The notes below the pieces were generated by a model. That model saw nothing but the letters and a program-made list of their open reading frames with translations. It did not search any database and had not been told where the DNA came from. This document shows, piece by piece, positions 7,850-57,700 of a DNA stretch of 64,000 nucleotides. Each line of letters begins with the position of its first letter. The stretch's first letter is position 1. This DNA comes from Paenibacillus sp. FSL K6-3182 (GTDB taxonomy: Bacteria; Bacillota; Bacilli; Paenibacillales; Paenibacillaceae). Location: the NCBI RefSeq assembly GCF_037976325.1, contig NZ_CP150265.1, positions 2,227,501 through 2,291,500 on the forward strand, written 5' to 3'. The translations under genes were made by a program, and so were the position numbers.

Positions 7850-9561
7850 CTAAGATGGATCGACGCAGCTATGCGGCCATGTTTGGCCCTACAACGGGTG
7901 ATGCCATTCGGCTGGCAGATACGGAGCTATGGGCACAGATTGAACATGATTACACGGTGTATGGCGACGAATGCAAATTCGGCGGCGGCAAGGTTATACG
8001 CGATGGGATGGGGCAGTCGAGCGGCGCGCAGCGTGATGAGGGTGTGCTGGATACATTGATTACGAATGCGGTTATTATCGATCATTCCGGCATTGTGAAA
8101 GCGGATATCGGCCTAAAGGATGGATTTATCGTTGGCATCGGCAAAGCCGGCAATCCAGACATTATGGACGGCGTGCACCCGAATATGATTGTTGGCGCAA
8201 GTACCGAGGTTATTGCCGGTGAAGGAAAGATTGTAACTGCAGGAGCCATTGATTCGCATATTCATTTTATTTGTCCGCAGCAAATTGAAACGGCGCTCTC
8301 CTCGGGCGTCACGACGATGATCGGCGGCGGAACAGGTCCGGCAACAGGAACCAATGCAACCACGGTAACACCTGGCGCGTGGCATATGCGGCGCATGCTG
8401 GAGGCAGCCGAACATTTTCCGATGAATATCGGCTTTACGGGTAAAGGCAATGCTTCTTTCACCGCTCCGCTCATTGAGCAAATTGAAGCGGGAGCCATCG
8501 GGCTTAAGCTGCATGAGGACTGGGGAACAACACCAGCAGCAATTGACGCTTGCTTGCAAGCCGCAGATCAGTATGACATTCAAGTTGCTATCCACAGCGA
8601 TACGCTGAATGAGGCAGGTTTTGTTGAGGATACGCTTGCGGCCATTGGCGGAAGAACGATTCATACTTATCATACCGAGGGCGCGGGCGGCGGTCATGCC
8701 CCAGACATCATTATCGCGGCGGGTGAGATGAATGTTTTGCCTTCATCCACGAACCCTACTCGTCCTTTTACAATTAATACGATAGAAGAACATTTGGATA
8801 TGCTGATGGTTTGCCACCATTTGGACAGCAGCATTCCTGAGGACGTTGCATTCGCTGATTCTCGGATTAGGCCGGAGACGATTGCAGCGGAAGATATTTT
8901 GCATGATATGGGCGTATTCAGCATGATTAGCTCCGATTCGCAGGCGATGGGGCGCGTAGGAGAAGTTATTATCCGTACATGGCAAACGGCAGACAAGATG
9001 AAAAAGCAGCGAGGACCGCTCCTTCCGGACAATGAACAGCATGATAACTTCCGTATTAAGCGCTACATTGCCAAATATACGATTAATCCTGCGATCACGC
9101 ATGGTGTCTCTCATCTGGTAGGCTCGCTGGAAGCCGGTAAATTCGCCGATCTTGTCATTTGGAATCCAATGTTTTTTGGCGTCAAGCCGGATCTCGTCCT
9201 GAAGGGCGGGAGCATCGCATTTGCGCAGATGGGTGATCCAAACGCTTCCATCCCGACACCGCAGCCTGTGTTCGGTCGGTCGATGTTCGCTTCCTTCGGG
9301 AAGCTGGTGTTTAGCAGCTCGATTACTTTTGTATCTCAGGCAGCCTATGATCTCGGGGTTGCGAAGGAGCTCGGACTGCAGAAACGTATTGAACCTGTAA
9401 AAGGCTGCCGCAGCGTAACGAAGAAGGATATGATCCACAATGATGCAACGCCTAAGCTTGAGGTGGACGCGGAAACGTATCATGTTCTGGTAGATGGCGA
9501 GCATGTGACCTGCGAGCCAGCTGAGGTGCTGCCAATGGCGCAGCGTTATTTCTTATTTTAG
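7846..9561 (+). CDS. ureC: Urease alpha (catalytic) subunit
   Basis: Catalytic subunit carrying the two-nickel centre, 571 residues (full length). Visible active-site parts: [10 protein letters not shown] (nickel His pair), the carbamylated Lys221 in [35 protein letters not shown], the flap segment MVCHHLD with its cysteine and histidine, and [12 protein letters not shown] near the metal-binding Asp. Start overlaps ureB by four bases. No truncation or replaced ligand is seen. Confidence 0.98.
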
Positions 9562-29992: not shown

Positions 29993-30290
29993 AAATTGAA
30001 TATTCTAACAAAAGCTGCGATGAGAAAGAGTACCAAGGCGATGTCTTTTTACAGAGAGCTCCGGTTGCTGAAAAGGGGTAAAGAATAACTTTGGGAATAT
30101 GGTCTCTGAGCTGCGCATCGAAACCTCATATGGTTGTAGGCTGCGCCGGAACCCGCACCCGTTACTGTGCTAGGGTATACATGCATAAGCATCGTACCTG
30201 AAGAGGTTAATGCCGCGAGGCATTAATAAAATTGGGTGGTACCGCGTGAGCACAGCTCTCGTCCCTTTGGGATGAGGGCTTTTTTGTTTG
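29993..30290 (+). promoter_or_regulatory. T-box riboswitch, methionine specifier
   Basis: Leader RNA that senses uncharged tRNA-Met. Stem I base is GCGATG near 30018 pairing with the CATCG end at 30116-30120; it contains AGAGAG (30051), GGTTGCTG (30063) and a specifier ATG at 30099-30101 in GGAATATGG. The antiterminator carries the conserved T-box GGGTGGTACCGCG at 30233-30245. The terminator is AGCTCTCGTCCC (30254-30265) pairing with GGGATGAGGGCT (30269-30280) and then TTTTTT. Uncharged tRNA should favour antitermination and synthetase expression. Confidence 0.92.
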
Positions 30291-39852: not shown

Positions 39853-40040
39853 TACTTTATTCTGATGGAACTTAAGCAAAACGATGAGCTCCCCTTATCC
39901 AATACACGGCTTACGAACCTAGAAACTCTTATTTAAACCATTCAGAATGGATTAACATTGTAACGAACTCTAGAATCGTTATTTCGAGAAAAGCAGCTAA
40001 AGACACCTTAAAAATCATGCTTTAGCGTTAATTGTCCACA
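39853..40040. other. Gene-free stretch
   Basis: I see no coding frame, promoter or strong fold in these bases. With the hairpin before and the iterated motif after, the gene-free gap from 39666 to 40237 marks the junction of core genes and the repeat-rich block. Confidence 0.5.
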
Positions 40041-40080
40041 GAAAATAAAGTATTAGATTGAGAAAATAAAGCTTTAGACT
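40041..40080 (+). repeat. Left pair of 19-base boundary motifs
   Basis: GAAAATAAAGTATTAGATT (40041-40059) and GAAAATAAAGCTTTAGACT (40062-40080) are tandem copies. Three copies in the opposite orientation lie on the far side of the repeat-rich block (44518, 44573, 44641). Confidence 0.7.
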
Positions 40081-40096
40081 TGCGGGTGCTTCATTA

Positions 40097-40120
40097 CGCT
40101 AACGGGCAGTTTAGTTCAAC
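40097..40120 (+). repeat. Cassette-boundary repeat R1 (right half only)
   Basis: Contains GCTAACGGGCAGTTTAGTT followed by CAAC, identical to the right half of R5. The left half of the element is missing, as expected if this is the first boundary of an array. Confidence 0.7.
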
Positions 40121-40819
40121 ATCCCTTGCAACCCACGGTTGCATTTAATGGTACATTCAATTCAACATATACTCGATTTTGATTTCGCTTTCTTTATGAT
40201 ACTATTTGCTTTAGTTGAGTAATGGAGGTGATCCACAGTGTTAGATAATGTAAAAGTCGGTAAAAACATATTGGACTTGCGGAAGGGACTATCATTAACG
40301 CAAGTAGAACTTTCCAATTTACTGGGCGTAAGCCATCAAGCCGTTTCCAAGTGGGAACAAGGCGAATGTTAGCCTGATATCGAAGTTCTGCTAAAACTAG
40401 GACAGGTCTTCAGCAAGTCTGTTGAAGAACTTCTTCTAAGTGAAAGTTTATATGGGGAGCCAGTAATTCATGAAGTTAAGAATACTAAAATAGAAGTAAC
40501 GGAACAATTTGATGTCTGGACAAAAGCATTGGACAAAATACAAAGCGAAATTTCAATTCCAAGCTTCAATACATGGTTTAAGAGTACGAAGGCAGAGTAC
40601 GTGGAAAGTACATATTTAATTTACAGTCCGAACAACTTTACTACGGAATGGTTATACCAAAGATACTCCAATTTCATTATGCAAATTCTCGAAGAAATTA
40701 CTGGTGAATCCGACTTTAAAATCGATTTTCGATCAATGGATAATTCTTCGACTAAATTTGAATCAAGTCTAATTCCAGGTAGAGCGAGTTTATGGTTAAG
40801 CTAACGGGAAACGATTGTT
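40098..40819 (+). repeat. Duplicated 722-base unit, copy 1
   Basis: Near-identical to 42518-43239. The first 140 bases, which include the promoter area, are the same; seven substitutions fall in the 567-base coding part and one in the terminal repeat. Similarity begins and ends within the GCTAACG repeat elements. Confidence 0.92.
40238..40804 (+). pseudogene. HTH-DnaA_N-like protein gene, copy 1, broken by nonsense codon
   Basis: Same 567-base frame as the intact gene at 42658-43224, with GTG start and GGAGGTGAT binding site. Codon 45 is TAG (40370-40372) where the other copy has TTG (Leu), cutting the protein inside the helix-turn-helix. Six other substitutions are present, so the copy is decaying but recent. 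An internal frame from 40529 still encodes the DnaA domain-I-like part and might in principle be translated, but has no clear ribosome binding site. Confidence 0.88.
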
Positions 40820-40890
40820 AATAACACACTTGATGAGCAGGCGCTACGGTGGGCTACTCTTCTTATTAAGCTAACGGGCAGTTTAGTATA
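40795..40890 (+). repeat. Cassette-boundary repeat R2
   Basis: Left part AAGCTAACGGGAAACGATTG, central imperfect GAGCAG/CTACTC pairing, right part AAGCTAACGGGCAGTTTAG. The stop codon TAA of the preceding frame (40802-40804) lies inside the element. Confidence 0.75.
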
Positions 40891-40989
40891 ATAAGGGACA
40901 TTTGCTAGAACGTTAAAATATTAAATTGAGATACATTTAAGAAAAAAGATTGGGCTATTTAAAACGATATCAGCGGGGGGAGAAGTGAA

Positions 40990-41493
40990 TTGGAGGATTC
41001 ATTAACGGAAAAGAATGGCTTGTATTCCTTACCACTGAACCAAAAGTCTAAATTAAAGTGGTCTCTCCACATTCTTTATGGATTTATGGTAGTCGTGTTT
41101 CTTGGTTTCATTATGATACCTGGTGATGACCAGGAAAAATTTATTCTAAACATTTTTTTTCTTGTGTTCGCTATCATTTTCGGATACGTATGGCTTGCAA
41201 TGGCATTGTTTAATAAGCCCCATTTAATAATTACTGACGAATACCTCGAATATAAATGGTTATTTGGACATAAGGTTATCATTTTAAACAGTATATACAA
41301 AGCTGAATTTTTTTCTGAAAGAGGTATTACTAAACTTGGAATTTGGGCTAATGAGCAAGGTAAACAGTCATTTTGGGAAACCACAGACCGATTTTTCGGC
41401 AGGGACTATTCAGTTAGTATCGTTGTTTCTACGTTTCAAAATATTGAATTTGATAAATTACGTTTAACAATTCTGTCAAAAATCAAAAGTTAG
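40990..41493 (+). CDS. Small membrane protein with PH-like cytoplasmic part
   Basis: 167 residues. Two hydrophobic segments at about 25-45 and 52-75 form a hairpin in the membrane; after NKPHLIITDEYLEYKWLFGHKVIILNSI-type strands (about 78-105) the rest resembles bacterial PH-like domains. No enzyme motif. TTG at 40990 with GGGGGGAG seven bases upstream. It is the second gene of the repeat-separated block, flanked by elements R2 and R3. Function unknown. Confidence 0.75.
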   Translation: MEDSLTEKNGLYSLPLNQKSKLKWSLHILYGFMVVVFLGFIMIPGDDQEKFILNIFFLVFAIIFGYVWLAMALFNKPHLIITDEYLEYKWLFGHKVIILNSIYKAEFFSERGITKLGIWANEQGKQSFWETTDRFFGRDYSVSIVVSTFQNIEFDKLRLTILSKIKS

Positions 41494-41539
41494 TGTTTAG
41501 TTTAATCGTAAGTATAGAGAGGATATTTCTCTTCATTCA

Positions 41540-41640
41540 TTGAACTAACGGGAAACTATAGGTGAACAAATAAGGAGCAGTTTGCTACATGGCAGCTGCT
41601 CCATTTCTTTGTTAAGCTAACAGGCAGGCTAGCGTAAACA
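41540..41640 (+). repeat. Cassette-boundary repeat R3
   Basis: Left TTGAACTAACGGGAAAC, tip stem GGAGCAG (41574-41580) with CTGCTCC (41596-41602), right GTTAAGCTAACAGGCAGG. The layout is the same as R5. Confidence 0.8.
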
Positions 41641-41684
41641 AAATGATCAAAAGTATTAACCATACGTAGTTAATTACATTTCGG

Positions 41685-41740
41685 GATTAGCGCAATGATT
41701 TTCGGCAGCTTCGTTTGGTTAACGGGGGTAGTTTGAGTAA
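41685..41740 (+). repeat. Degenerate boundary repeat R4
   Basis: GGTTAACGGGGGTAGTTTGA at 41717-41736 resembles the right half of the other elements; the left side is not clearly recognisable. It precedes the DinB-like gene. Confidence 0.45.
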
Positions 41741-41749
41741 ATGTAAATA

Positions 41750-41778
41750 TTTACTTGCGAACTAGTGTTCGGTATAAT
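41750..41778 (+). promoter_or_regulatory. Sigma-A promoter of the DinB-like gene
   Basis: TTTACT and a perfect TATAAT with a 17-base spacer, 35 bases before the start codon. It shows that this gene has its own promoter inside its unit. Confidence 0.7.
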
Positions 41779-41813
41779 AAGCTTGATTCCATTACAAAAA
41801 GGAGATGTTGGAT

Positions 41814-42317
41814 ATGTATAAACACATTAAAGATTTTGCCGCAACTTGGCAGTATGAAACGGAAGCAACAATGCGGACACTGGAGATGCTGACCGACGAG
41901 TCTCTTGGCCAACAGATAACAAGCGATCATAGAACGCTTGGACGTGTTGCATGGCACCTTGTACAGACGTTGCATGAAATGCCATCTCGGACGGGACTGT
42001 CTTTCGAAGGACCGGGCGAAGATATGCCGGTGCCAGCTTCGGCAGCAGACATCGCGTCAGTCTATAAGAGGACCTCACAAGCGCTCCTTGATGCTATACA
42101 GTCCAGTTGGAAAGATGAGAATCTGCTTATCATGAGCGATATGTATGGTGATCAATGGCCAAACGGCTTAATGCTGGATATTCTCGTAAAGCATGAGATT
42201 CATCATCGTGGTCAGATGACAGTCCTGATGCGTCAGGCAGGCCTTCGTGTGCCGGATCTTTATGGCCCGACAAAAGAGCAGTGGGCCGAGTACGGAGCGC
42301 TACCTCCAGTAATTTAG
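41814..42317 (+). CDS. DinB family (YfiT-like) metal-binding protein
   Basis: 167 residues, four-helix bundle of the DinB/YfiT group of putative metal-dependent enzymes (thiol transferases among them). Metal ligands would be the His of VAWHLVQT and the two of HEIHHRGQM. GLRVPDLYGPTKEQW closes the family pattern. ATG at 41814 follows AAGGAG by nine bases; the ATG at 41805 is too close to that site. Third gene of the repeat-separated block. Confidence 0.85.
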   Translation: MYKHIKDFAATWQYETEATMRTLEMLTDESLGQQITSDHRTLGRVAWHLVQTLHEMPSRTGLSFEGPGEDMPVPASAADIASVYKRTSQALLDAIQSSWKDENLLIMSDMYGDQWPNGLMLDILVKHEIHHRGQMTVLMRQAGLRVPDLYGPTKEQWAEYGALPPVI

Positions 42318-42443
42318 AGAAAGATTATATCCGCTTTGGCCGTTTGGCTATAGTGGGATTTATAAGTATTTTATCATAGGATTGAAAGTGGTGGCTTGAA
42401 TCATAGACAAGAGGATACCATCGGACTGAAACTGTTGATTCTA

Positions 42444-42540
42444 TTGAACTAACGGGGAACGATAGTTGAACGGAAAATGGAGCAGTTTGCCGCGGCATCT
42501 GCTCCTTTTATTATTAAGCTAACGGGCAGTTTAGTTCAAC
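42444..42540 (+). repeat. Cassette-boundary repeat R5 (most complete)
   Basis: Outer arms TTGAACTAAC (42444-42453) and GTTTAGTTCAA near 42529-42539 pair with one bulged base; inner GATAGTTGAA pairs imperfectly with TTAAGCTAAC; the tip is GGAGCAG (42479-42485) with CTGCTCC (42499-42505). Unpaired CGGGGAA and GGGCA lie between the stems. Confidence 0.85.
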
Positions 42541-43239
42541 ATCCCTTGCAACCCACGGTTGCATTTAATGGTACATTCAATTCAACATATACTCGATTTT
42601 GATTTCGCTTTCTTTATGATACTATTTGCTTTAGTTGAGTAATGGAGGTGATCCACAGTGTTAGATAATGTAAAAGTCGGTAAAAACATATTGGACTTGC
42701 GGAAGGGACTATCATTAACGCAAGTAGAACTTTCCAATTTACTGGGCGTAAGCCATCAAGCCGTTTCCAAGTGGGAACAAGGCGAATGTTTGCCTGATAT
42801 CGAAGTTCTGCTAAAACTAGGACAGGTCTTCAGCAAGTCTGTTGAAGAACTTCTTCTAAGTGAAAGGGTATATGGGGAGCCAGTAATTCATGAAGTTAAG
42901 AATACTAAAATAGAAGTAACAGAACAACTTGATGTCTGGACAAAAGCATTGGACAAAATACAAAGCGAAATTTCAATTCCAAGCTTCAATACATGGTTTA
43001 AGAGTACGAAGGCAGAGTACGTGGAAAGTACATATTTAATTTACAGTCCGAACAACTTTACTACGGAATGGTTATACCAAAGATACTCCAATTTCATTAT
43101 GCAAATTCTCGAAGAAATTACTGGTGAATCCGACTTTAAAATCGAGTTTCGATCAATGGATAATTCTTCGACTAATTTTGAATCAAGTCTAATTCCAGGT
43201 AGAGCGAGTTTATGGTTAAGCTAACGAGAAACGATTGTT
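42518..43239 (+). repeat. Duplicated 722-base unit, copy 2
   Basis: Partner of 40098-40819. It starts in the right half of R5 and ends in the left half of R6, so the duplicated piece is repeat-bounded exactly like a cassette. Confidence 0.92.
42658..43224 (+). CDS. XRE helix-turn-helix protein with DnaA domain-I-like C-terminus
   Basis: 188 residues in two parts. Residues about 8-62 are a classical HTH_3 domain (LRKGLSLTQVELSNLLGVSHQAVSKWEQGECLPD). After a linker, residues about 92-165 closely follow the pattern of the N-terminal domain of the replication initiator DnaA: W-KALDKIQSEISIPSFNTWFKSTKA and SPNNFTTEWLYQRYSNFI, then a strand FKIEFR. In DnaA this domain recruits the replicative helicase and regulators. 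There is no AAA+ ATPase and no DnaA DNA-binding domain. GTG start with GGAGGTGAT. Intact copy of the duplicated unit; function unknown. Confidence 0.82.
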   Translation: MLDNVKVGKNILDLRKGLSLTQVELSNLLGVSHQAVSKWEQGECLPDIEVLLKLGQVFSKSVEELLLSERVYGEPVIHEVKNTKIEVTEQLDVWTKALDKIQSEISIPSFNTWFKSTKAEYVESTYLIYSPNNFTTEWLYQRYSNFIMQILEEITGESDFKIEFRSMDNSSTNFESSLIPGRASLWLS

Positions 43240-43304
43240 CAATACACTACGTTAGCTGGTCTAATGCTCAGCTGCCGTTTCTAATTGAAATAACGAGCAG
43301 GAAT
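43214..43304 (+). repeat. Cassette-boundary repeat R6
   Basis: Left GTTAAGCTAACGAGAAACG, central AGCTG/CAGCT pairing at about 43254-43272, right ATTGAAATAACGAGCAGG. The stop codon of the preceding gene lies within it. Confidence 0.65.
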
Positions 43305-43418
43305 ATAAAGAAATGGAAACGAGTACATAATTCAGCATCCAAAATAGGTTGATTAGCGTGATTTCAACAACCGAGGATTTTTGTAAGCATCATAAAACTA
43401 AAAGGAGTAGCTGTTACT

Positions 43419-44483
43419 ATGAAGGATTTACATAATTTTGTTTCAGAGTACACGAAAGATAAGAAACATTTACATCTTGCGATCGGGATTATTAGAGAGG
43501 GCGGTATTGAATACTTTTCGTTCAGTAATAATCAAAAGAGAAGTACGATTCCTCCTGAGCATATGTTGTTTGAAATCGGCTCCATAACCAAAGTTTTCAC
43601 ATCCATTCTCTTATTAGAAATGGAACGGGAAAAACTGCTTTCCTCGGATGACATGGTTGGTAAGTTTGTGCCAAACGTTAAAAACGATTATTTGAATAAG
43701 GTTACTTTGAAAAGTCTTGCTACTCATACCTCTGGTTTACCTAGATTGGCAACAAACCACAATCTGGCTAAAAAAAGATCGAATCCTTATTCAATGTATA
43801 CCGAGCAAGATTTAACTGCTTTTCTATCTAATGCTGACTACACGGATAGTATTGGTTCATTTGGATATTCCAATATCGGTGTGGGCTTACTGGGGAGTAT
43901 TCTATGCAAAGTGTCAGGAAGCAAGTATGATGAACTGTTGAAAAAATACATAACGAGCCCATTAGAGATGAATGAGACAGCCGTTACACTTGATTCAGAA
44001 CAGAATAGAAGGTTTTTGAATGGACATGCTTCAACTGGGAAGAGAGTCCCTCACTGGGATCTCTCTATACATGAAGGAGCTGGGGGGATTAAGTCATCGG
44101 TTAACGATTTGAGTTTATTTGTCCAAGCCAATCTAAATGATGATAATCCGATAGCCTCTACACTGCAAAAAAGTCATATCCCTATATGGATCGGAAATTC
44201 AAACCGCCATTTTGGCTGGGGTGAGGATAAACTTCTAGATAAAGGTATCCTCTGGCATAACGGGGGTTCAGCTGGTTTTAACAGTTATCTAGCTTTCAAC
44301 AAGGAACTCCGTGTAGGAATTGTATTGCTATCCAATTATTCTTTTTTCTCGAATTCTCTTATGGATTATTATGTTGCTCAATTAATAAAATGGATTACTA
44401 AAAAAGAGCCTTCTCAAGGAACTATGATAGACGTTACAGGGTTAAAAATATTTGAAGCCATCCTAAGTAGTGAAAAGTCATGA
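43419..44483 (+). CDS. Serine hydrolase, class C beta-lactamase / PBP fold
   Basis: 354 residues. SxxK is GSITKVFTS (nucleophile Ser followed by Ile-Thr-Lys), YxN is GYSNIGVGLL and the third motif is HNGGSAGF. No signal peptide is seen, so it is likely cytoplasmic and perhaps an esterase or D-amino peptidase. ATG with AAAAGGAG upstream. It is the fifth gene of the repeat-separated block; its TGA stop is part of the following element (TGAACTAACGG). Not closely related by eye to the hydrolase at 28280. Confidence 0.85.
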   Translation: MKDLHNFVSEYTKDKKHLHLAIGIIREGGIEYFSFSNNQKRSTIPPEHMLFEIGSITKVFTSILLLEMEREKLLSSDDMVGKFVPNVKNDYLNKVTLKSLATHTSGLPRLATNHNLAKKRSNPYSMYTEQDLTAFLSNADYTDSIGSFGYSNIGVGLLGSILCKVSGSKYDELLKKYITSPLEMNETAVTLDSEQNRRFLNGHASTGKRVPHWDLSIHEGAGGIKSSVNDLSLFVQANLNDDNPIASTLQKSHIPIWIGNSNRHFGWGEDKLLDKGILWHNGGSAGFNSYLAFNKELRVGIVLLSNYSFFSNSLMDYYVAQLIKWITKKEPSQGTMIDVTGLKIFEAILSSEKS

Positions 44484-44585
44484 ACTAACGGAGAACGTTA
44501 GTTGAAATAGCCGCGGCAGTCTAAGACTTTATTTATCTGGTCTTGGTTCGCCGCTGCTTTTGTTATGGGGTTAGTCTAAAACTTA
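44481..44585 (+). repeat. Cassette-boundary repeat R7 (last)
   Basis: TGAACTAACGGAGAACGTTAGTT is itself an inverted repeat (AACTAACG / CGTTAGTT). Inside lie nested pairings GCGGC/GCCGC and AAGAC/GTCTT, then GGGTTAGTC. The first right-hand boundary motif (44518) overlaps it. Confidence 0.7.
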
Positions 44586-44659
44586 TTTTTTAAAAGCTGA
44601 CGATCTTTCAATTCAAAAATCGCGTTAATTCAATGACTCCAGTCTAATACTTTATTTTC
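44518..44659 (-). repeat. Right group of boundary motifs, three inverted copies
   Basis: AGTCTAAGACTTTATTTA at 44518, AGTCTAAAACTTATTTTT at 44573 and AGTCTAATACTTTATTTTC at 44641. The last is the reverse complement of the left motif at 40041 with one change. Confidence 0.68.
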
Positions 44660-45178
44660 ACCGAACATTAATTAGATTCGTTAAAACGCAAGAAGCGTAG
44701 TTTTCTATGGAATAAGCTCAATACAGTTCGTTAGAGAATAAACCAACCCCTAATGTCTTACACGAAATCGTTTATTATGCGCGAATCTATCACAATAGTG
44801 ACCATATAAATCAAAAAAAGAGAATTCCACCCCTTATTAACATAAAAATCCCCTTTCTTTCATAGGTGCAATCCAACTACTATAGGTATGAGTTCGAATG
44901 GTAAAAAGTATCATTTTTTTGATATTAGTATCAAATTAGTAAGGATGACCACGCTCTTTGATATCAAAATAAGCTAAACCTTTACAGCATTTTCCCACAC
45001 CTCTTTCATTGCGCAGCTCTTTTCTAGTAAATGATTTCATTGCTAATCTACATGCTTGTCAGTCTCCCCAACAAGTTAACCCACATGTTATTTTAACTCG
45101 AATATTCAACCCGTATAAGCTTATACCTTCAACCAAAACTACTTAGTCGAATGCATTCAGAAGTTATTAACAAACTAT
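44660..45178. other. AT-rich gene-free stretch before panD
   Basis: No coding frame with a ribosome binding site is seen. It contains two TTTGATA-type palindromes (separate entry) and ends in a cre-like site. Probably regulatory DNA of the biosynthetic operon plus the outer edge of the repeat block. Confidence 0.5.
44918..44968. promoter_or_regulatory. Pair of TTTGATA palindromes, possible operators
   Basis: TTTGATA-TTAG-TATCAAA (44918-44935) and the perfect palindrome TTTGATATCAAA (44957-44968) have centres 36 bases apart. The shared half-site suggests a dimeric regulator; no cognate gene is identified. Confidence 0.4.
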
Positions 45179-45334: not shown

Positions 45335-45718
45335 ATGTTTAGAGAAATTCACAAATCCAAAATTCACCGTGCGGTCGTTACGGAAGCAAATTTGAATTAT
45401 GTAGGCAGCATCACGATTGATCAAGATATTTTAGACGCATCCAATATTTTAGAGAACGAGAAAGTACAAGTTGTAAATATCAATAACGGCGCACGGTTGG
45501 AGACGTATGCGATCACTGGCCCAAGAGGCTCAGGCATGGTTTGTCTAAATGGAGCGGCTGCGCGAATGGTTCAGCCAGGAGATCTCGTTATTATTATCTC
45601 CTACGCTATGATGGAAGATCATGAAGCGAGGGTGTACAAGCCCGATGTGGTCATTATGGATGAGAATAATCGGATTGTGACGGACAAGTATCAAGAGCTG
45701 CACTCTACAACGGTATAA
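45335..45718 (+). CDS. panD: Aspartate 1-decarboxylase
   Basis: Pyruvoyl enzyme that turns aspartate into beta-alanine. 127 residues. The self-cleavage site is the Gly-Ser of NYVGSITID, where Ser becomes the pyruvoyl group; [31 protein letters not shown] and [10 protein letters not shown] are conserved. The ATG at 45335 follows GGAG by ten bases; an in-frame ATG at 45317 is less well placed. No panB or panC is beside it; instead it is the first gene of a long operon, 29 bases before the assembly-line gene. It could supply beta-alanine as a building block or for pantetheine arms. Confidence 0.95.
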
Positions 45719-45747
45719 TGCCACAGACAAAAAGTAGGGGGAGCTAT

Positions 45748-48700
45748 ATGAATATCATTCGAAATCTCTCAGAGGTACTCATTGCAAGCGGAACGAGCGG
45801 TGCGGGCATTACGTTCTGCGAGGCGGGTAAGGATCGATTCGTGTCGTATGGGCAACTACGCAAGGCAGCGGGAGCAGTACTAGGTCAGCTGCAGGAAAGA
45901 GGGCTTGGCAAAGGGCAGCATGTTGTGCTGCAGACCGAAGATAATGAACGATTTCTTGTTTTGTTTTGGGCCTGCCTATTGGGCGGCATGATCCCCGTTC
46001 CACTTACAGCGGGACGAACTGACGAAGGAAGGAAGAAGCTTCTTCAAGTAAGCAGCCAACTTGGAAATCCGTATTTGCTGTGCGAGCCAGAAATATGGGA
46101 ATCAATTGCAGCTTATTGTCTCAAGAATGAAGAGCATGCCACAGGACAGCTTCTGCAAAAAAAAATGCTGCCGATCAAGGATGTTTTGGATGAAGCAGCT
46201 GCTATAGATCGCCAAGGAACAATCTATGCGGCAAACGAGGATGATGTTGCATTTATCCAATTCACCTCTGGTTCTACAGGTGATCCTAAAGGTGTTGTTT
46301 TGACACATGGCAACTTGCTTTCGAATATGCGGGCGATATTGGAGGGCGCTCAGTCGACCGAGGCTGATTCCTCTTTAAGCTGGCTCCCGCTTACGCATGA
46401 TATGGGTTTGATCGGATTTCATCTAACTCCGATGCTTGGGCTTATGAATCAATGGCAGATGCCGACCTCGACATTCGTGCTTCATCCGATGAAGTGGATG
46501 GAGCTCACGCATCAGCATCGCATTACCTGTCTATCATCACCTAACTTTGGTTATGTTCACTTTCTACAGCATTTTAAACCTGAGAATGCCACCGGCTGGG
46601 ACCTTAGCTCGGTAAGGCTTATCTTTAACGGAGCGGAACCAATATCCGCGAGCAATTGCCGTGAGTTTCTCGCACAGATGAAGCCTTATGGGCTTAGAGA
46701 ACAATGTATATTTCCCGTCTATGGACTAGCGGAAGCAAGTTTGGCCGTTACATTTCCGCATGTGGAGGAGAGGTTGAATACCTTATATGTAAGCCGAAAA
46801 GGCTTGAATATCGGGGATGTTATTCAGGATGCTCCAGCAGATGATCCCAATAAAATAGAAATCGTTGAGCTTGGGGTCCCTGTATCCGAATGCGAGCTTA
46901 AAATTTGCGACGAGTCTGGCCGGGAAACGCCAGATCGGTATGTTGGACTCCTCCATATTAAAGGGAGGAATGTCACCAAGGGTTATTTTAACCGCCCTGA
47001 TGTGAACGCCGTCATTCTATCGTCAGACGGTTGGCTGAATACCGGTGATCTTGGATTTATGCAAGACGGCAGATTGTATGTGACTGGCCGCATGAAGGAT
47101 ATTATTTTCGTCAATGGCCAGAACGTATACCCGCATGATTTGGAAATGCTGGCAAGTGAAATTAAGGGAGCAGAAATAGGCAAAGTAGCTGTCAGTGCGA
47201 TTCAGAATGAAGTAACGAAGCAGGATGAGATCGCCATATTTATTCAATTTCGAGGCAAACTTAACGGTTTTGTGCCGCTGAGGCAAAGCGTGCAGCGATT
47301 GCTTAATCGAAAAACTGGACTCCAAGTGGAGCTCATTGTTCCAGTGAAGCGTATTCCGAAAACGACCTCTGGGAAAATTCAGCGTTACACTCTTGCTGAG
47401 AGTATGCAGAGCGGACAATTCTCTTCAGTCATTTCGGAATTGGAGTCGCTGGCAGCGATTATGGAAGAAACAGCTCCCGAGTTGGCTGCTGCAGCTCCTG
47501 AAACGGATGCCGAACAGCGCATATTGTCTATTTGGAAAAAAGTGCTGAAGACAGACCGCATTGGAATAGATGATCATTTTCTGGAGCATGGCGGTAATTC
47601 ACTGCGCGCAGCTTATGTAGCTGCCCAGCTGCAGTCGGCGTTTGGCATAAATGTATCTCTGAGCGAGTTGTTTCAGCATCATACTGTTCGGTTACTGGCC
47701 GCTTATGTCGCTGAAGTGACTGCTGGGGAAGATCAAAAAAATGGCGGAAATGGCCAGTGCGAAGTGATCTCAAATGGAGGCACGAGGGATTGGTATCCCG
47801 CTACGTCTGCTCAGAAGAGATTATTTATTGTTGAGGAAATGAATTCAGGTCTCCTTCGTTATCATCTTCCGCAGCGCATAAGCATTGATGGGGAGCTTGA
47901 CCTCAGTAAGTTTCAACAGGTGTGGGAGTCTTTGGTCAACAGGCATTCTTCACTACGTACATCATTTGTTATGGACAATGATATCGTGGTCGGTCGCATT
48001 GCAGATTCAGTAAAGCTGCCCATTGTTTGTACAGACGGCCGCGGTTGGTCAGAGAGTGATATGCAGCACAAAATAAGTGCATTTCTGCAGCCCTATGAGC
48101 TGTCTAAGGCGCCGTTGTTCCGAATGGAGTTAATCACACTTGGTCATAACCGACATCTGATGTTATTTGATATGCATCATCTCATTACGGATGGCACGTC
48201 GATGGGGATATTAATCGGGCAATTTGTTGCGATGTATGAAGGGGCTGTGTTGCCTCCAATATCTTTTCAATACAGCGATATTGCTGATTGGGAGAAAAGG
48301 TTCAGGGCAGAAGATAGGCGCATGATCAGGCAGAGAGGGTATTGGCGGCAAATCTTCAAGGAGGGAGCGGGGGAGATCGACATCCCGGCAGATTATCGGC
48401 GCCCGCTCACTCCTAGCTACAAGGGAGCTATCGAAAAATTTGTACTCGATGCAACACTTACAGCTAAGCTGGAGCAATTAGCTTTCCGAACAGGCGGTAC
48501 GCTGTATACCGTTTTAACTTCCGTTTACTTTATGCTGCTGAGCAAGTACACCGGAGCAGTTGATATGGTGATCGGTACTGCGTCGGCAGGGAGAACAAGG
48601 CCGGAGATGGAAGGTATCGTGGGCCTGTTCGTCAATATGGTGCCGCTGCGACTTCGGGCTGGCAAGGAGCTTTCGATCCTTCAATGCTTTGAAGAGATCA

Positions 48701-51700
48701 ATAAACAAATATTGTTATCGCTAGACCATCAGGATGTCCCTTACGAAGAAATTGTAGAGCTGGCAGAGGCAAAACAAGAACATGGCCGTAATCCATTGTT
48801 CAGCACTGTATTTACGTTGCACAACATGGAAATTCCACAGTTTAATACAGCGAATGTCACATTCAAGCCTGAGCCGATAGGGACAGGTACATCTAAATTT
48901 GATATGACCTGGGAATGTGTAGCTTCGGAGGAAGGCATTAAAGTATCTATTGAATATTCCCTCGACTTGTACAGTCAGGAAACAGTAAGAGGATTTGCTC
49001 GCCATTATAAAACATTGGCTGATGCAGCAGTTCAATCCCCTGAGACGACTGTTGAGATGCTTCCTATGTTAGACGAGGATGAATGCCAGCTTATTTTGGC
49101 AGATAGCGAGTCGAGTCGAGCACCTTACCCTAACGATACTTCACTGTACAAGCTGTTTGAGAGGCAGGTGGCTCATACACCGCAGCTCCCGGCTATAGTT
49201 ATGGATGAGGCAAGCCTCTCTTACACAGAGCTGAATGAAATGGCAAATACTCTGGCTAGATGGCTCATCAACCATGGAGTAGTTCCACATTCACGTGTGG
49301 CGCTGCTTCTTCATCGATCCTTTAATATGCCAGTTGCGATACTTGCTGTGTTGAAGACCGGCTCCGCTTATGTGCCAATCGACCCGAGTTATCCTATCGA
49401 CAGGATTGAGTTTATGCTTGGGGACGCTGATATTTCTACAATGATAGTAGATGCCCGGACAAACCATATAGGCGGCAAGCTTGCTCAAGCTGGGAATAGA
49501 CCAGTAGATAAGATTGACATGGATGCTATGAGGAACGAGTGGAGACAGGCAGAGGGACATAATTTGAGCGTGGATGTAACAGGGGACGACGCAGCTTATG
49601 TGATGTACACCTCTGGTTCCACAGGACGGCCAAAAGGAATTTTAACTACGCACCGAAACGTCATTCGCATTGCTCGGGATACTGACTATATCCGAATCAC
49701 GAATGAGGATGCGCTGCTGCAGTTATCGAATTATGCGTTTGACGGGTCGACGTTTGATTTTTATGGGGCACTTTTGAACGGCGCAAAGCTCGTCCTTGTG
49801 AATGAAAACGATTTGCTTGATATCCATCAGCTTATTTTATTGATGAAGAAACAAAGGGTTACTATATTTTTTGCGACTACAGCTTTGTTTAATGCATTCG
49901 TTGACTCTGGACTGAAGGACTTGCCTTCCCTTCGTCATCTATTGTTTGGCGGTGAACGCGCATCAGCCTCGCATATTAGAAGAGCTTATCAGACCGTCGG
50001 TTCAGGCGTGCTGCTTCATGTGTACGGTCCAACAGAGTCTACTGTTTTCGCTACTTGTTATCCGATTGACTCGCTAGAGCAGGACAATGCTGCAATTCCA
50101 ATAGGCAAGCCTGTCGCACATTCAGAAGCACTTGTATTGGACGAAAATGGTGCCTTGCTCCCAGCACTTGTGCCTGGGGAGTTATGTATTGCCGGCGATG
50201 GTTTAACACAAGGTTACTTGAACCTGCCGGAGCTTACTGCAAATAAATTTGTTCCCCATCCTTTTAAGGAGGGAACCAAGCTTTACAGGACAGGGGATTT
50301 GGTTAGGCGGCTGCCTGACGGTAATCTAGAGTTTTTGGATCGGCTCGACACCCAGGTGAAGCTGCGTGGATTTCGCATAGAACTGGGGGAAATTGAGAGC
50401 AAACTACTAGAGTGTGAGGACGTTAGGGAAGCGGTAGTTATGCTGAAATACCGCAGCGGCGATCCGCAGCTTGTTGCTTACATCGTAGCGAATGGTGAAC
50501 TCTTCATAGATCGGCTGCAAGCAGAGCTGGGAGCACAGCTGCCGCAATTTATGATTCCGGCAGTCTTCGTGCGGGTGGAGAAGCTCCCGCTCACTTCTAA
50601 CGGCAAGATTAACAAAAACGCATTGCCTGAGCCTGACTTTTCCAAACTGAGCATCGGAATGGCAGCAGCCTATGTCCCCCCTGCAACCCAAACCGAAATT
50701 CAGCTTGCAGCCATTTGGGAAATGATTTTGAAGGTAGAGGCTGTAGGCGTTAATGATCACTTCCTCGCACATGGCGGTCACTCTTTGAAGGCTGCAGCGC
50801 TTGTAACGGAAATCTACAAGCAATATCATGTCCGAATGCCGATCAAGGAAGTTTTTCTACGTTCAACAGTTAGAGAGCAAGCAGAATGGATTGACAACGC
50901 AGATATAGAGGCATATGAACCCATAAAACCGATAAACATTTCTCAATCTTACCCGTTAAGTCCATCCCAGCAGCGTATTTTTCTCATTGAAGAAATTGCA
51001 AACGCGGGTATAGCCTATCATATCCCGCTAGCGCTGCGCTTAACTTGCCATGTTCAGCGAACGGATATGGAACGGGCCATAAAAAATCTTATTGCTCTGC
51101 ATGAGCCGCTTCGTACATCATTTCAGTTTATTGACGGTGAGGCGCGTCAAATTATACATGAGCATGCTTCGTTCGAGCTTCAAGAGATAAGCGATACAAC
51201 AATAGATTTGGAGCAACAGTTCTGCGAATTTGCTAAGCCGTTGCCGCTTTCACAAGCACCGCTCCTTGACGCACGGCTGCTCAGCAGCGCATGCGGAGAA
51301 ACTTATTTGCTTCTAAATATCCATCATATTATTGCGGATGGCATTTCGGTGAGTCTGCTTATTGAAGAGCTAGTCAAACGACTAGACGGCAAGCGCTTGG
51401 AAGAGCCGCATATTCAGTACAAGGATTATGCGGTATGGAGAGCAGGCCAAGGGAATACGGAACGCATGCGGAAGAGCATCCGATATTGGGAGACTGAGTT
51501 AAGCGATCCACCTCCGAGCCTCGACATGCCGCTTGACTTCCCGCGTGGGGAACGGCAATCACTTGAGGGGGAGACGCTTGGATTCCATGTATCTTCAGAG
51601 CTAACAATTCGGCTTCAATCTATATCCGATATGCTCAATATCAGCTTAAATAGTCTGTTGTTTGCTTCCTACGCTCTGCTTCTTCAAAAGTATACAAGTG

Positions 51701-54700
51701 GAAATGACTTGATTATTGGGGCGCTAGCGGCAGGAAGATTACATCCCGAAACGACTAATATGATCGGTATGTTCAATAATTTTCTTCCAATTCGCCTTAA
51801 AATAGGCGATGGAATGAAATTTGATCAATTTGCGAAGGTGTCACATGATCATATGCTTGCAGCACTCGAACATCAAGATGTGAGCTTTGACCAGATGATT
51901 GAAGCTGCGCAAATGACGATGGATCCCTCACGAAACCCGCTGTTCGATACGATGATGATTTTGCACAACCAGATCGGAAATGATCTGGAAGTGAAGGGTC
52001 ACACTGTAGGGGTACAGCCTATACGCGCAGGTAAAAACATGACATCTAAATTGGATTTTAAACTTGATCTTTATTCTCATGGTGACGGAGGCCTTCGAGC
52101 AGAGCTAGAGTTCAATACGCGATTATTTCATAAAGCAACGATGATGAGGCTGGCGGACCATTGGCTCAATGTACTGAAACAAGTGACGGATGAGCCAGGT
52201 ATGAGATGCTCTTCCCTCAGCTTAATTATGGAGAAGGAAGCGCAAATGCTTCTTCAAGAATGGAATGATACAGCAAGGCCGTATCCTAGTGGCGAAACCA
52301 TCCATGGCTGTTTTGAGGCACAGGTGCGCAAGACGCCTGATGCTCCAGCTATTCGATCGAACGAGGGCATGTTTACTTACCGTGAGCTTGATGAACGCGC
52401 AAATCGACTCGCTCTGCTGCTCCGTCAGAAAGGTGTTGGAGCTGACACAATCGTCCCGATTGTTGCAGAGCGCTCTTTTGAAATGATGGCAGCGATTTTA
52501 GGCATTCTAAAAGCCGGGGGCGCTTACTTGCCTATCGATCCGCATTTTCCAGAGGAGCGTATTGGGTACATTCTTGAAGATAGCGGAGCCAATATATTAT
52601 GTTCCCAGCACAAATGGATGAACCAACTGCCGTTTAATGGTGAAATTATAGATATAGATGCTGTTGAAGACAAGGGTTCCCATGATGCTGAGAAATGGCT
52701 ATGGGAGCCTGCTGTGAACGCGCATCATTTGGCATATGTCATCTATACATCAGGTTCTACTGGAAAACCAAAGGGAGTTATGATCGAGCATGCTGCGGTC
52801 ATCAACCGTATACATTGGATGCAAGATCAATATCCACTTGACGCGCAAGATGTCATTCTTCAGAAGACACCCATAACATTTGATGTTTCGGTGTGGGAGC
52901 TGTTCTGGTGGAGTTTTGCAGGGGCATCTGTTTACTTGCTGGAACCGCGGGGGGAGCGGGAGCCGCAGGTCATGATGAAAGTCATCCGTGAGCAAGCGGT
53001 GACGGTCATGCATTTTGTCCCGTCCATGCTGGGTGTATATCTTCAGTATGCATCGGAAGTTAAGGCGGACAAGCCTTTCGGAGGTTTGCGTTACGTATTT
53101 GCAAGCGGAGAGGCGTTGAAGCCTGCACAGGTGGAAGGGTTCTATAGCCAGCATTCTACAGGCAGCGAAAGTCCACGACTCATAAATTTATACGGACCGA
53201 CTGAAGCGACCGTGGATGTCAGCGTATATGACTGCGCGAACTATAAGCAAGGATCAGTTCCAATTGGCTCGCCGATTCAAAATATTCGGCTGTACGTTGT
53301 GGATGAGCAGCGACGGCTGCAGCCCATTGGAATTCCGGGCGAGCTCTGCATCGCTGGAGTGGGACTCGCTAGAGGTTATTTGAACCGTCAAGAATTGACT
53401 GCGGAAAAATTTGTACCCGATCCTTTTTTTGCTGGGGAACGCATGTACTTGACCGGAGATCGCGCGCGCTGGCTTGCTGACGGTCATATCGAGTATTTGG
53501 GTCGATTCGATCATCAAGTGAAGATTAGAGGATTTCGAATGGAATGTGGAGAGATTGAGTATGCGCTGATGCAGCTGGAGGAGGTTTCCGATGCGCTCGT
53601 CATGACCGTGAAGGATCTGACGGGAGAGCCAGCCTTATGTGCATATATGGTTTCTTCTTTTGAGCTCAATGAACGTGAGTTGAAGGAGAGGCTGAGGGGG
53701 AAGCTTCCGGAATATATGATTCCTTCCCTTTTTGCCTGCCTGCATACCTTTCCTCTAAATGCTAGCGGGAAGATAGACCGCAGTCGCCTTCCACAGCCGA
53801 CGTTTGCTGATTCTATTGGCGGCGCCGATCCCCGCAGCGAGACGGAGCTCCGACTGGCAGAGCTATGGAAGAGCATACTTGGTGTTCACATCGTACGCAC
53901 CGACGATCATTTTTTCCAGCTTGGCGGACATTCGCTGCGCGCAGCGCAGTTAACGGGTGCAGTGGAGCGGCAGTTAGAGGTCACATTTACACTAAAGGAT
54001 GTGTTCGCTTACCCGGTCCTAGAAGAGATGGCAGCGTTCATTGATAGATCGACGAAAAGGACTGCAGCATCTATCACAAGGGCCGAGCAGAGGGATGTTT
54101 ATCCATTGTCGCTTGCGCAGAACCGACTATTCGTTTTGCATCATATGAAGCCTTCCAGTACAGCCTACAATTTGCCGCTCGCACTCAGTATGCGTGGTGA
54201 ACTGAACGTTGAGAGACTGCAAGAGGCGCTGCAGCGGCTCATTGATCGTCATGAGCCGCTCAGAACAAGCTTTGAATGGCGCGATGGTGCCCCCGTGCAG
54301 CGCATTCATGAGCGAGTAACGGTGCGAGCTGATGTAACAAAAACGGATCAAGTGGATGGATGGAGCAGCATGCAAAAATTCGTTCAGCCATTCGATTTGA
54401 GCATTGCTCCGCTGCTGCGCGCTTCGCTTATTACGAATGGCGCGCAAGAGCATTTGCTGCTGCTTGATATGCATCATATCGTTTCTGACGGTATTTCAAT
54501 GACAGTGCTGGCACATGATTTCACCAAGCTTTATGAAGGCGGCACATTGTTGCCGCTTGAAGTCCAGTACAGGGACGTAGCTGTATGGCAGCAGGGCTTT
54601 ATGAAGAGCCGAGAGCGGGATAGGCAAGAGCAGTACTGGCGAGAGGAGCTGGCGGGAACGCTGCCGCTTCTGGATTTGCGAGTGGATAAGCCAAGGCCAG

Positions 54701-57700
54701 CCGAACAAAGCTTTAAGGGGAGCAAAATCATTCATGCGCTGCCTCTCTCGTTAATGTCCGAAGTAGAGTCATTGGCAGCAACGGCTGGCATGACTAGTTT
54801 TCCAATATGGCTTACTTGTTTTCACGTGCTGCTTCATAAGCTGACGGGGCAAGAGGATATTATCTCCGGTACACCGATTGGAGGAAGATCCCATCTAGAG
54901 ACAGCCCCGCTTGTTGGGATGTTTGTCAATACCGTTGCTATACGGAGCCAGCCATCGGGTGAGCACAGCTTTCTTCATTTTGCCAAACAGATCAAGGAGA
55001 AGGTGCTTGGTGCGATGCATAATGGGATGCTGCCGTTCGAGCATTGTGTAACCGCACTTGATGTAAAGCGAGACCTGAGTCGAAATCCAATCTTTGATGT
55101 CATGTTCGTTATGCAAAATATGGATGTGCCGTCAATGAAAGCTGATGTGCTGCAATTAAAGACGCAGCCGCTGGAGCATGCTGTATCCAAGCTGGACCTG
55201 ACGTTTGAGCTTGCAATGCGTGAGGATGGTGCAGACCTTACTGTAGAATATGCAACGGATCTATTCGAAAAGCAAACAATCAACCGAATGATTAGCTACT
55301 ATATTCGAATTATGGAGCAAATTACGAAAGATACGCATATCTCTTTAAACCAGATAAGCTTGCTGACTTCGGATGAAGAAGCCATTCAACTTGTTCAATT
55401 TAATGAAACGGCTACCGCTTATCCAAGTCATTTGACCGTTGAGTCTTACTTGGAAGCACAAGCTGAGTGGATACCGCATGCCACTGCCCTGATATATGAG
55501 ACGGGGAAAATGTCCTATAGTGAACTGAATGGGAAGGCTAATCGGCTGGCAAGAGCTCTGAGAAAGCACGGGGTGAAGCATGAGGATACTGTAGCCGTCA
55601 TCATGGAGCGTTCTGTAGACATGATCATTGCGATTTACGGCATATTGAAGGCAGGAGCGGCGTATGTCCCGATCTCACCTGGGCTTCCTGAAGAGCGAAT
55701 TCGATATATGCTGGATGACTCGGGAGCAAGGATTGTTTTGACTCGGGGCTTAGACGGGCAGATCGGCAACATGTCGCTAGACTCTGAACGATTGAACATA
55801 GAGGAAGCGCTGCAGCATGAGCAAAATGATGGACCGTTAGAAAAAATCCATCGATCGCGCAGCTTAGCGTATGTGTTGTACACCTCAGGGTCAACAGGAC
55901 AGCCGAAAGGGGTAATGATTGAGCACCATTCCGTAGTGAATCGCCTTACGTGGATGCAAAACAGATACACACTTGATATGCATGATGTGATTCTGCAAAA
56001 AACGCCATTTACGTTTGATGTGTCGGTATGGGAGTTGTTCTTATGGAGCTTCTCAGGCGCTAAGCTATGCTTGCTTGCACCAGGCGGAGAAAAGGACCCT
56101 GGGGCGATATATGATGCCATTAATAAGCATGCGGTGACTACGCTACATTTTGTACCTTCTATGCTTCATCTGTTTTTGAATTACCCGGGCCTTGTTAATG
56201 ATAGTAAAAAGCTTGAGAGCTTACGTTATGTTTTTGCCAGTGGAGAAGCGCTTACGGTCAATCAAGTAGAGAGATTCAGAGAGCGAATCGGAGAACCTAA
56301 TGCTGCGAAGCTCATTAATCTGTATGGTCCAACGGAAGCGACGGTCGACGTGTCCTATTACGAGTGTATAGGAGAGCAAAGTTTAACGAGCGTGCCTATT
56401 GGCAAACCTATCGACAACATTTCCATATATGTGGTCAATGATGTTATGCAGGTTCAACCGGTAGGCGTGGCGGGAGAGCTGTGTATTGCGGGAGCTGGCT
56501 TGGCGCGAGGGTATTGGAAACGTCCTGATTTGACCTCGGAAAAGTTTGTGATAAATCCATTCGCAGCTAACGAGCTCATGTATCGTACAGGCGATCTTGC
56601 GAGGTGGCTGCCTGATGGCAGCATCGAATTTCTGGGACGAATGGATCACCAGGTGAAAATTAGGGGGTACCGCATTGAATGCGGGGAGATCGAGCATGCG
56701 CTTACGGGTCATCCAGACGTAAGGGAAGCCGTTGTCATGAAGCGTGACGGGGTTGCGGGGAAAAGCGCATTTCTATGCGCGTATGTCGTAACGAGTGATG
56801 CAGTCACAACTGCACAATTACGCTATCATTTGGCTAAAACATTACCCGATTATATGGTTCCGGCTGTCTACGTGGAACTGGATCACATGCCGCTTTCTCC
56901 AAATGGCAAGGTAGATCGGAAGTCATTGCCAGCACCAGACGAGCGGTTGGATGCAGGCGTGCGTTATGTGGAGGCAGCAAGCGAAACGGAGAAAACCATT
57001 TCTATCGTTTGGGGAGAAGTGCTAGGCCGAACCGCTATTGGGACGCATCATAATTTCTTTGATGTTGGGGGAGAGTCGCTGCTGCTTGTCCGTACCCACC
57101 AGCGATTGGAAGAGCTGTACCCAGGTTTACTCAAGGTGACGGATCTATTTAATTATCCGACAATTGCCGCGCTTGCAGAATATATCGATTCCCAAAGCAA
57201 TCTTTCTCGCACTTGGCATTATGCAGGGATTGCTGCAAGCGAGGACTGCTTCAATAACACATACGCTGCGCAGCGGAATGGTTCGTATCAATTCACCCTT
57301 GAGGACGATTTAATTGAGGGACTGGCGGAAATGGCATATTCGCAGTCCGTGTCCATTACAACCGTTGCACTAGCAATCTACCTGCTCTTCTGGAAGCAGC
57401 AGTCAGGCGCTAATGATCTGGTTATGCCGGTTGCAACATCAAGGGGACGGCTCACACCTTTAGAGCTTGACTTTAGTAAGGTGCTGGAGTTTAGCGAACT
57501 AATACGAGCAGCCGACGCGTTGTTTGACGATACGAAAATTTCCTACGATTGGAATCAAGTGGAGAGAGAGCCTGGGAGCTATAATAGTTCCTGCATCACG
57601 CCTTTGTTTGTAGATCGCTCGCGCACAGGCTTCATTCCCGAAAATCAACACATGCATCTCTTCGATATCATTCTGACATTAGACAGCGGCAGGGGCGCAG

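Follow-up and report, generated by a model that had tools for sequence, protein, structure and literature searches.

Integrons, whose features include the attC motif and attI, are the closest described counterparts of the system considered here, and Tn7, which itself carries a class 2 integron, offers a parallel to the mobile element in which it was found. We followed up a 64,000-nucleotide stretch of Paenibacillus sp. FSL K6-3182 (NCBI RefSeq assembly GCF_037976325.1, contig NZ_CP150265.1, positions 2,227,501 to 2,291,500 of the forward strand; hereafter, the window), in which five short same-strand genes alternate with repeated elements inside a 4,635-bp Tn7-like element at 40033-44667. A sequence-only reading had recognized this alternation of units and repeats and left three origins open: an integron remnant, a family of miniature inverted-repeat transposable elements (MITEs), and a new cassette system in Firmicutes. 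Comparison with other genomes supports the last of these, and the window probably holds a short array piece, within the Tn7-like element, of an integron-like, site-specific cassette system of Bacillales.

As in integrons, there is a tyrosine recombinase, there are long same-strand arrays of mostly single-gene cassettes, and the repeated element has two simple sites around a hairpin, with cassettes starting at the right-hand (RH) core; in other Bacillales, the recombinase gene is also divergent from the array. Unlike in integrons, the recombinase fails the IntI family model, the attC motifs GTTRRRY and RYYYAAC are absent, crossovers appear to fall in the left-hand (LH) core too, so that linker and gene are separate, and the recombinase gene of Paenibacillus is co-directional with the array and often in linker position. 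Our best reading is that the system works like an integron, yet is not one by the definitions tested, which were the IntI model and the GTTRRRY/RYYYAAC motifs. The recombinase finds its best sequence and fold matches among XerC, XerD, and XerA, but it falls under all three curated cut-offs and lies in gene arrays. With Tn7, the window element shares TGT...ACA ends, repeated TnsB-type sites, and a 5-bp duplication, and relatives have TnsABCDE at glmS; it differs in having no transposase, in lying away from glmS, and in having ends fused to cassette half-sites. True integrons are reported to be rare in Gram-positive Bacillales, where this system occurs. The portions of the IntegronFinder 2.0 paper (PMC9024848) consulted give one complete integron in Firmicutes, in Limnochorda pilosa, along with a few clusters of attC sites lacking integron-integrases (CALINs), and term integron scarcity in such clades intriguing. 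In the excerpts of a second paper (PMC11089894), Bacillales are mentioned once, among the genomes surveyed, and no prior description of the cassette system was recognized in the portions covered of the open-licence PubMed Central literature (CC0, CC BY, and CC BY-SA; bioRxiv excluded).

Each element is built from two imperfect palindromes, the L-site and the R-site, which have a common CTAACGGG core and flank a variable hairpin, the architecture of an attC site. Aligned copies gave the consensus TTaagCTAACGGGnaACgaTAGtTgAA for the L-site and TTaagCTAACgGGCAGgaTagttnaa for the R-site, with a variable center of 43 nt (median), and the arms are named, in order, 1L and 2L (L-site) and 2R and 1R (R-site). 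A sequence-only model made from 32 copies found elements in 49 of 51 genomes of the genus (E ≤0.01, among at most ~79 scored candidates per genome) and in 112 of 148 genomes of the family, representing 17 of 19 genera (E ≤0.001, among at most ~27 scored candidates per genome). Altogether, 398 elements were found in 66 stretches (1.81 Mb). Within the 51 stretches that have more than one, 384 of 387 elements lie on the majority strand and 3 on the other, and in genome G029 all 67 share a strand over ~215 kb, a span that includes nested transposon ends and gaps as long as ~24 kb. The stretch between neighboring detected elements has a median length of 1.06 kb, a figure inflated by missed elements. 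Of 277 cassettes, 244 have their longest open reading frame (ORF) on the array strand, and 3 have no ORF of 60 amino acids (aa). Such tandem, same-direction, mostly single-gene cassettes are the arrangement of an integron. A hand-picked Pfam sample (10 of 20 sampled cassette proteins) included aldo/keto reductase, methyltransferase, nucleotidyltransferase, GyrI-like/Cass2, DoxX, AAA, NUDIX, DinB, and pentapeptide families, together with a glyoxalase match below its cut-off. Besides 266 R-type sites in full elements, 29 had no upstream hairpin, L-site, or transposon end; these solo sites are possible direct gene-gene junctions, as expected if gene modules can join directly too. One cassette start, GGGCAGCATTCCTATTATGAAGAAATA, recurs directly after R-sites of several genomes, ahead of differing ORFs (L177:11373, L293:6882, G040, and G033), and the related start GGGGCAGCATTCCTGTA is present in other Bacillales.

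Different arrays contain near-identical cassettes whose junctions lie at the cores. A threshold of 78% identity across 150 nt or more gave 64 cassette pairs; ends were counted (18 three-prime and 15 five-prime) only where a pair had at least 85% identity and its match stopped no more than 12 nt short of the cassette ends. At five-prime ends, arm 1R travels with the gene, with an identity of at least 0.9 in 11 of 15 (random mean, 0.58), whereas the upstream hairpin does not exceed an identity of 0.75 in 12 of 15 (random mean, 0.60). Of the 18 three-prime ends, five diverge only beyond the complete element, nine have a different hairpin, three share the same context, and one is intermediate; among the nine with a different hairpin, 1L identity is at least 0.9 in six.

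The same boundaries emerged from linkage tests on 316 distinct elements (of the 398; score >45). The type of hairpin shows linkage with 2L (z 27.6) and with 2R (z 35.2) but none with 1L (z −0.5) or 1R (z −1.4), while 1L and 2L (z 1.5), like 2R and 1R (z −0.2), are unlinked despite a spacing of ~9 nt. Resolved by column, R positions 0 to 9 go with the left side and 15 to 25 with the right, the switch falling within columns 10 to 14; L positions 0 to 7 go with the left side and 17 to 26 with the right, with the switch within columns 8 to 16. A few columns give small counter-signals (R20 left, 3.4; L8 right, 2.9), and near-invariant columns are little informative, so the limits of the crossover zones are approximate. 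These z-values ignore relatedness, and the informative point is the position where linkage is lost. Loss of linkage in both cores, with linkage kept across the hairpin, suits a tyrosine recombinase and not homologous recombination. Since the hairpin linker is tied to its own arms and the breaks fall in both cores, genes and linkers would be exchanged separately.

A genuine cassette system could also confine recombination to the R core, with a folded single strand as substrate, in the manner of integrons; what looks like L-core exchange would then stem from subsequent deletions, from genes newly joined to linkers, or from decay. The five three-prime ends that diverge only after the whole element match the integron pattern, and 96.5% of the 316 elements have a central hairpin that outperforms its own shuffle in folding; set against these, half of the three-prime ends retain the gene next to another hairpin, linkage between 1L and 2L is lacking, and arm pairing is unsupported. 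We consider recombination confined to the R core possible but rather unlikely, and we favor exchange in both cores.

The candidate enzyme for such exchange is a Xer-like tyrosine recombinase of ~280 aa, encoded in the arrays in up to several copies per genome. The genome that contains the window has 10 integrase-domain matches, one of them inside an array, and that recombinase is broken into frames of 82 and 181 aa (3.5735-3.5744 Mb). Relatives of the 181-aa piece (E ≤1e-20) occur in 29 of the 51 genus genomes, many being distant or partial, and nine genus genomes have open recombinase frames of at least 285 aa with 83 to 91% identity. The description of the array as integrase-less is accurate for the window but not beyond it, given the broken gene in another array of the same genome and the open copies in arrays of relatives. 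In a set of 12 recombinase loci, all had sites; 9 have one no more than 102 nt before the frame, and 7 have one no more than 45 nt after it. The flanking sites often have the right arm CGCTAGTT upstream and CTAAAGGGCAG downstream. Among 38 named loci (67 to 91% identity), a site lies upstream in 25, downstream in 22, and on both sides in 15, compared with a background of 14 in 1,140 random reverse-strand windows. From these site counts, the recombinase gene often, though not always, occupies the position of a hairpin linker. In a side observation on the conserved leader of this gene (L261-L309, up to ~80 nt upstream of the start), a potential stem, AAAACCTYY...RRGGAGGTTTT, surrounds the ribosome-binding site before the ATG; it has 6 pairs only, 2 of them with changes on both sides, and it could hide the ribosome-binding site, which we record as a lead only.

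Arrays of this kind would also be left if IntI-type integrons with canonical attC cassettes had lost their integrase, and elements of two simple sites with a central hairpin, one-direction single-gene cassettes, and cassette genes of the integron kind, including the Pfam Cass2 match, all have that appearance. The detailed comparison makes such an origin very unlikely. At the aligned positions of the 316 elements, GTTRRRY occurs at 1R in 1, RYYYAAC occurs at 1L in 5, and both occur in none, in keeping with the observation in the sequence-only reading that this core is not matched exactly. The recombinase reaches 88 to 93 bits, in two separated stretches, on the IntI family model (TIGR02249), against a cut-off of 265, and scores higher on the NCBIfam XerC, XerD, and XerA models (184 to 191 bits, below cut-offs of 335, 330, and 220, respectively). 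Foldseek placed XerA first and IntI4 ninth for its predicted structure (pLDDT 88, pTM 0.75), with TM-scores of ~0.55, and a spread over 17 of 19 family genera is unlike a recent import. In a separate search for integron integrases as references, no IntI-labelled record was found among the 60 listed of 2,946 plasmid records.

Beyond the family, recombinase homologues with ~50% identity occur in Bacillus, Neobacillus, Sporosarcina, Lysinibacillus, and others. About half of 25 aligned loci have an upstream site (reverse complement like TTGAAGTAACGGGCAGGTTAGTTCAA) and a hairpin and site downstream. Across 42 loci, 38 two-site elements were found in 16, all 38 on the strand opposite to the recombinase, and single sites were likewise found mostly on the opposite rather than the same strand (R, 132 versus 10; L, 113 versus 19), counts that rest on loose site patterns whose overlapping matches may count twice. 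Shuffled loci of these Bacillales had no two-site elements and no single sites. The layout of recombinase and array in these other Bacillales resembles that of an integron.

We propose that gene modules (1R-gene-1L) alternate with hairpin linkers (2L-hairpin-2R), that the junctions between them are the L-sites and R-sites, and that the ~280-aa recombinase would exchange strands in the CTAACGGG cores, so that cassettes may be inserted, excised, and reordered. This recombinase would be the one that acts, presumably by way of circular intermediates, on a substrate that may be either a folded single strand or a duplex. Transposition of the Tn7 type, with TnsB acting on the end repeats and TnsABC plus TnsD or TnsE supplied in trans, would carry array pieces to plasmids and other chromosomal places, and TnsABC of relatives might act on the ends in the window. 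The copy in the window is probably dormant, since the only array recombinase of its genome is disrupted and that genome yielded no transposase accompanied by matching ends. We lean slightly toward a further proposal, that Bacillales have a second kind of integron, distinguished by a Xer-like recombinase, gene and linker as independent modules, a recombinase gene able to sit in the linker position, and Tn7-like spread of array pieces from genome to genome by way of ends joined to half-sites. Internal deletion of a recombinase-bearing linker may have given rise to the short hairpin linkers. If these proposals are true, Gram-positive bacteria include a large group with a cassette system of its own, perhaps invisible to IntI- and attC-based searches. 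One could then test for more than one origin of cassette shuffling, ask if recombination at both simple sites removes the need for a folded hairpin site, and study the spread of arrays through ends that are joined to half-sites. The arrays would also point to a large stock of cassette genes that are so far unread, and the system might be of use as a recombination tool in Gram-positive bacteria.

Several observations weigh against the integron-like reading. The support for it is comparative throughout, recombination itself being something that we infer; the stretches fetched were mostly picked at strong matches, and the related cassette pairs are not all independent. The longest ORF is opposite to the array in 30 of the 277 cassettes, and site flanks on both sides were not found in 23 of the 38 recombinase loci. 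Over the 316 elements, the 1L-1R pairing expected of a folded attC-like site is unsupported (z −0.9), and Watson-Crick pairing of 2L with 2R is below shuffle (z −5.1); there is weak linkage of 1R with 1L of one cassette (z 2.8). Of 17 adjacent inward-facing pairs of transposon ends (74 stretches), 13 have matching 5-bp flanks, and the 4 without (L049, G042, G048, and the G029 array) are a further difficulty, though these may be mispaired or rearranged. Covariation of the arms was absent both within each simple site and between 1L and 1R.

A terminator-like hairpin repeat family (MITE-like or of the repetitive extragenic palindromic [REP] type) that has no recombinase of its own and is amplified and shuffled through homologous recombination and Tn7-like transposition is largely refuted and hardly credible, for although hairpins followed by T-runs resemble terminators, many array pieces adjoin Tn7-like ends, and hairpin families recur, 67 of 67 elements keep one strand over ~215 kb, linkage switches only in short cores where homologous recombination would break hairpins too, and the recombinase gene recurs beside sites and is consistently divergent in other Bacillales. 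Single scattered elements with no link to gene gain, which the sequence-only reading had named as speaking against its proposal, were looked for and were not the pattern observed; the elements stand in one-directional arrays, and the 5-bp duplication found belongs to the whole 4.6-kb Tn7-like element.

That Tn7-like element is bounded by target-site duplications, TTAAT, at 40028-40032 and 44668-44672, and in genome G033, which has the same species label, both flanks are joined with a 6-bp overlap, representing the empty site. Its end repeats are of the GAAAATAAAGTATTAGACT type following TGT, two at the left and three inverted at the right. The left end (40033-40080, forward) comprises TGT and repeats at 40041-40059 and 40062-40080, and the right end (44518-44667, reverse) has repeats at 44518-44536, 44573-44591, and 44641-44659, with ACA at 44665-44667 last. 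The outermost repeats (40041 and 44641), which the sequence-only reading had missed as such, are the transposon ends. No TnsABC with TnsD or TnsE was found among the ORFs between these ends, so the element is nonautonomous.

The array inside lies wholly on the forward strand. It opens at the left edge with a solo R-site, continues through four two-site elements, and closes at the right edge with an L-site plus hairpin. The solo R-site (40094-40119) is joined to the left end in an attI-like position and is followed by cassette gene 1 (40238-40804; HTH_3 plus DnaA_N type), a copy of gene 4 with an in-frame TAG at 40370-40372. Element 1 (40796-40891; L-site 40796-40822, center, R-site 40866-40891) precedes gene 2 (40990-41493; 167 aa), and element 2 (41540-41637; L-site 41540-41566, hairpin, R-site 41612-41637) precedes gene 3 (41805-42317), of the DinB family. 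Element 3, the best copy (42444-42539; L-site 42444-42470, hairpin, R-site 42514-42539), leads to gene 4 (42658-43224), an open HTH_3 plus DnaA_N frame, and element 4, which is degenerate (43216-43310; L-site 43216-43242, center, R-site 43285-43310), leads to gene 5 (43419-44483), a serine hydrolase of the Beta-lactamase family (PF00144). Element 5 (44480-44565) has an L-site at 44480-44506 and a hairpin fused to the right end; it lacks an R-site. Within 44507-44591, the hairpin of element 5 includes one TnsB-type repeat, so that cassette site and transposon end are fused, and similar fusions were seen in L048, L049, and L050. The DinB cassette has a copy with 97% identity in another array, in G033, directly before a right transposon end.

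Earlier calls of DnaA-like, DinB-like, and serine hydrolase proteins agree with Pfam, whereas the "PH-like" label of gene 2 found no Pfam family. Stop codons lie within the element for three of the five units (both DnaA-like copies and the hydrolase) and outside it for the other two. Elements 3 and 5 fold better than shuffles as single-stranded DNA (z −3.0 and −3.5), elements 2 and 4 show a weak excess (z −1.6 and −2.0), and element 1 folds no better than shuffles (z +1.0). Rfam gave no match within the array at gathering scores. The model scored element 3 at E 3.5e-22, element 2 at 5.3e-20, and element 1 at 4.8e-17, values that are not independent because these three were among the 32 sequences used to build it. 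The window repeats are not chance, and the model-independent support comes from controls with a site detector trained on the copies of the genome, which found 0 elements in window positions 1 to 36000 and 0 in one shuffle of the ~215- to 220-kb G029 array.

Related transposon ends recur elsewhere. In G029, they enclose TnsA, TnsB, TnsC, TnsD/TniQ, and a TnsE-like protein beside glmS (Pfam), and ORF inspection found the same gene order in G018. Plasmids of Paenibacillus and Thermobacillus bear similar ends with different cargo, and one of Priestia bears a left end. The genome of the window has its own TnsABC operon adjoining glmS (6.84 Mb; L053:8410-12194), with a type I restriction methylase-like gene. 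No end repeats of the window type (≤4 mismatches) were found in the 20-kb stretch around it, so it apparently belongs to another Tn7-like family, and it was rejected as the transposase source for the window element. In G048 (L169:6796-7057), an R-site-like sequence is the insertion point of an element of 0.3 kb that has the two ends and the duplication CCTGC.

Other features of the window lie outside the Tn7-like element. Positions 45718-57855 hold a 4,045-aa ORF with repeated adenylation- and condensation-like motifs, by eye a nonribosomal peptide synthetase. Rfam matches mark a 5' ureB small RNA (7998-8293) and, ahead of an ORF resembling methionyl-tRNA synthetase, a T-box leader (30008-30269).

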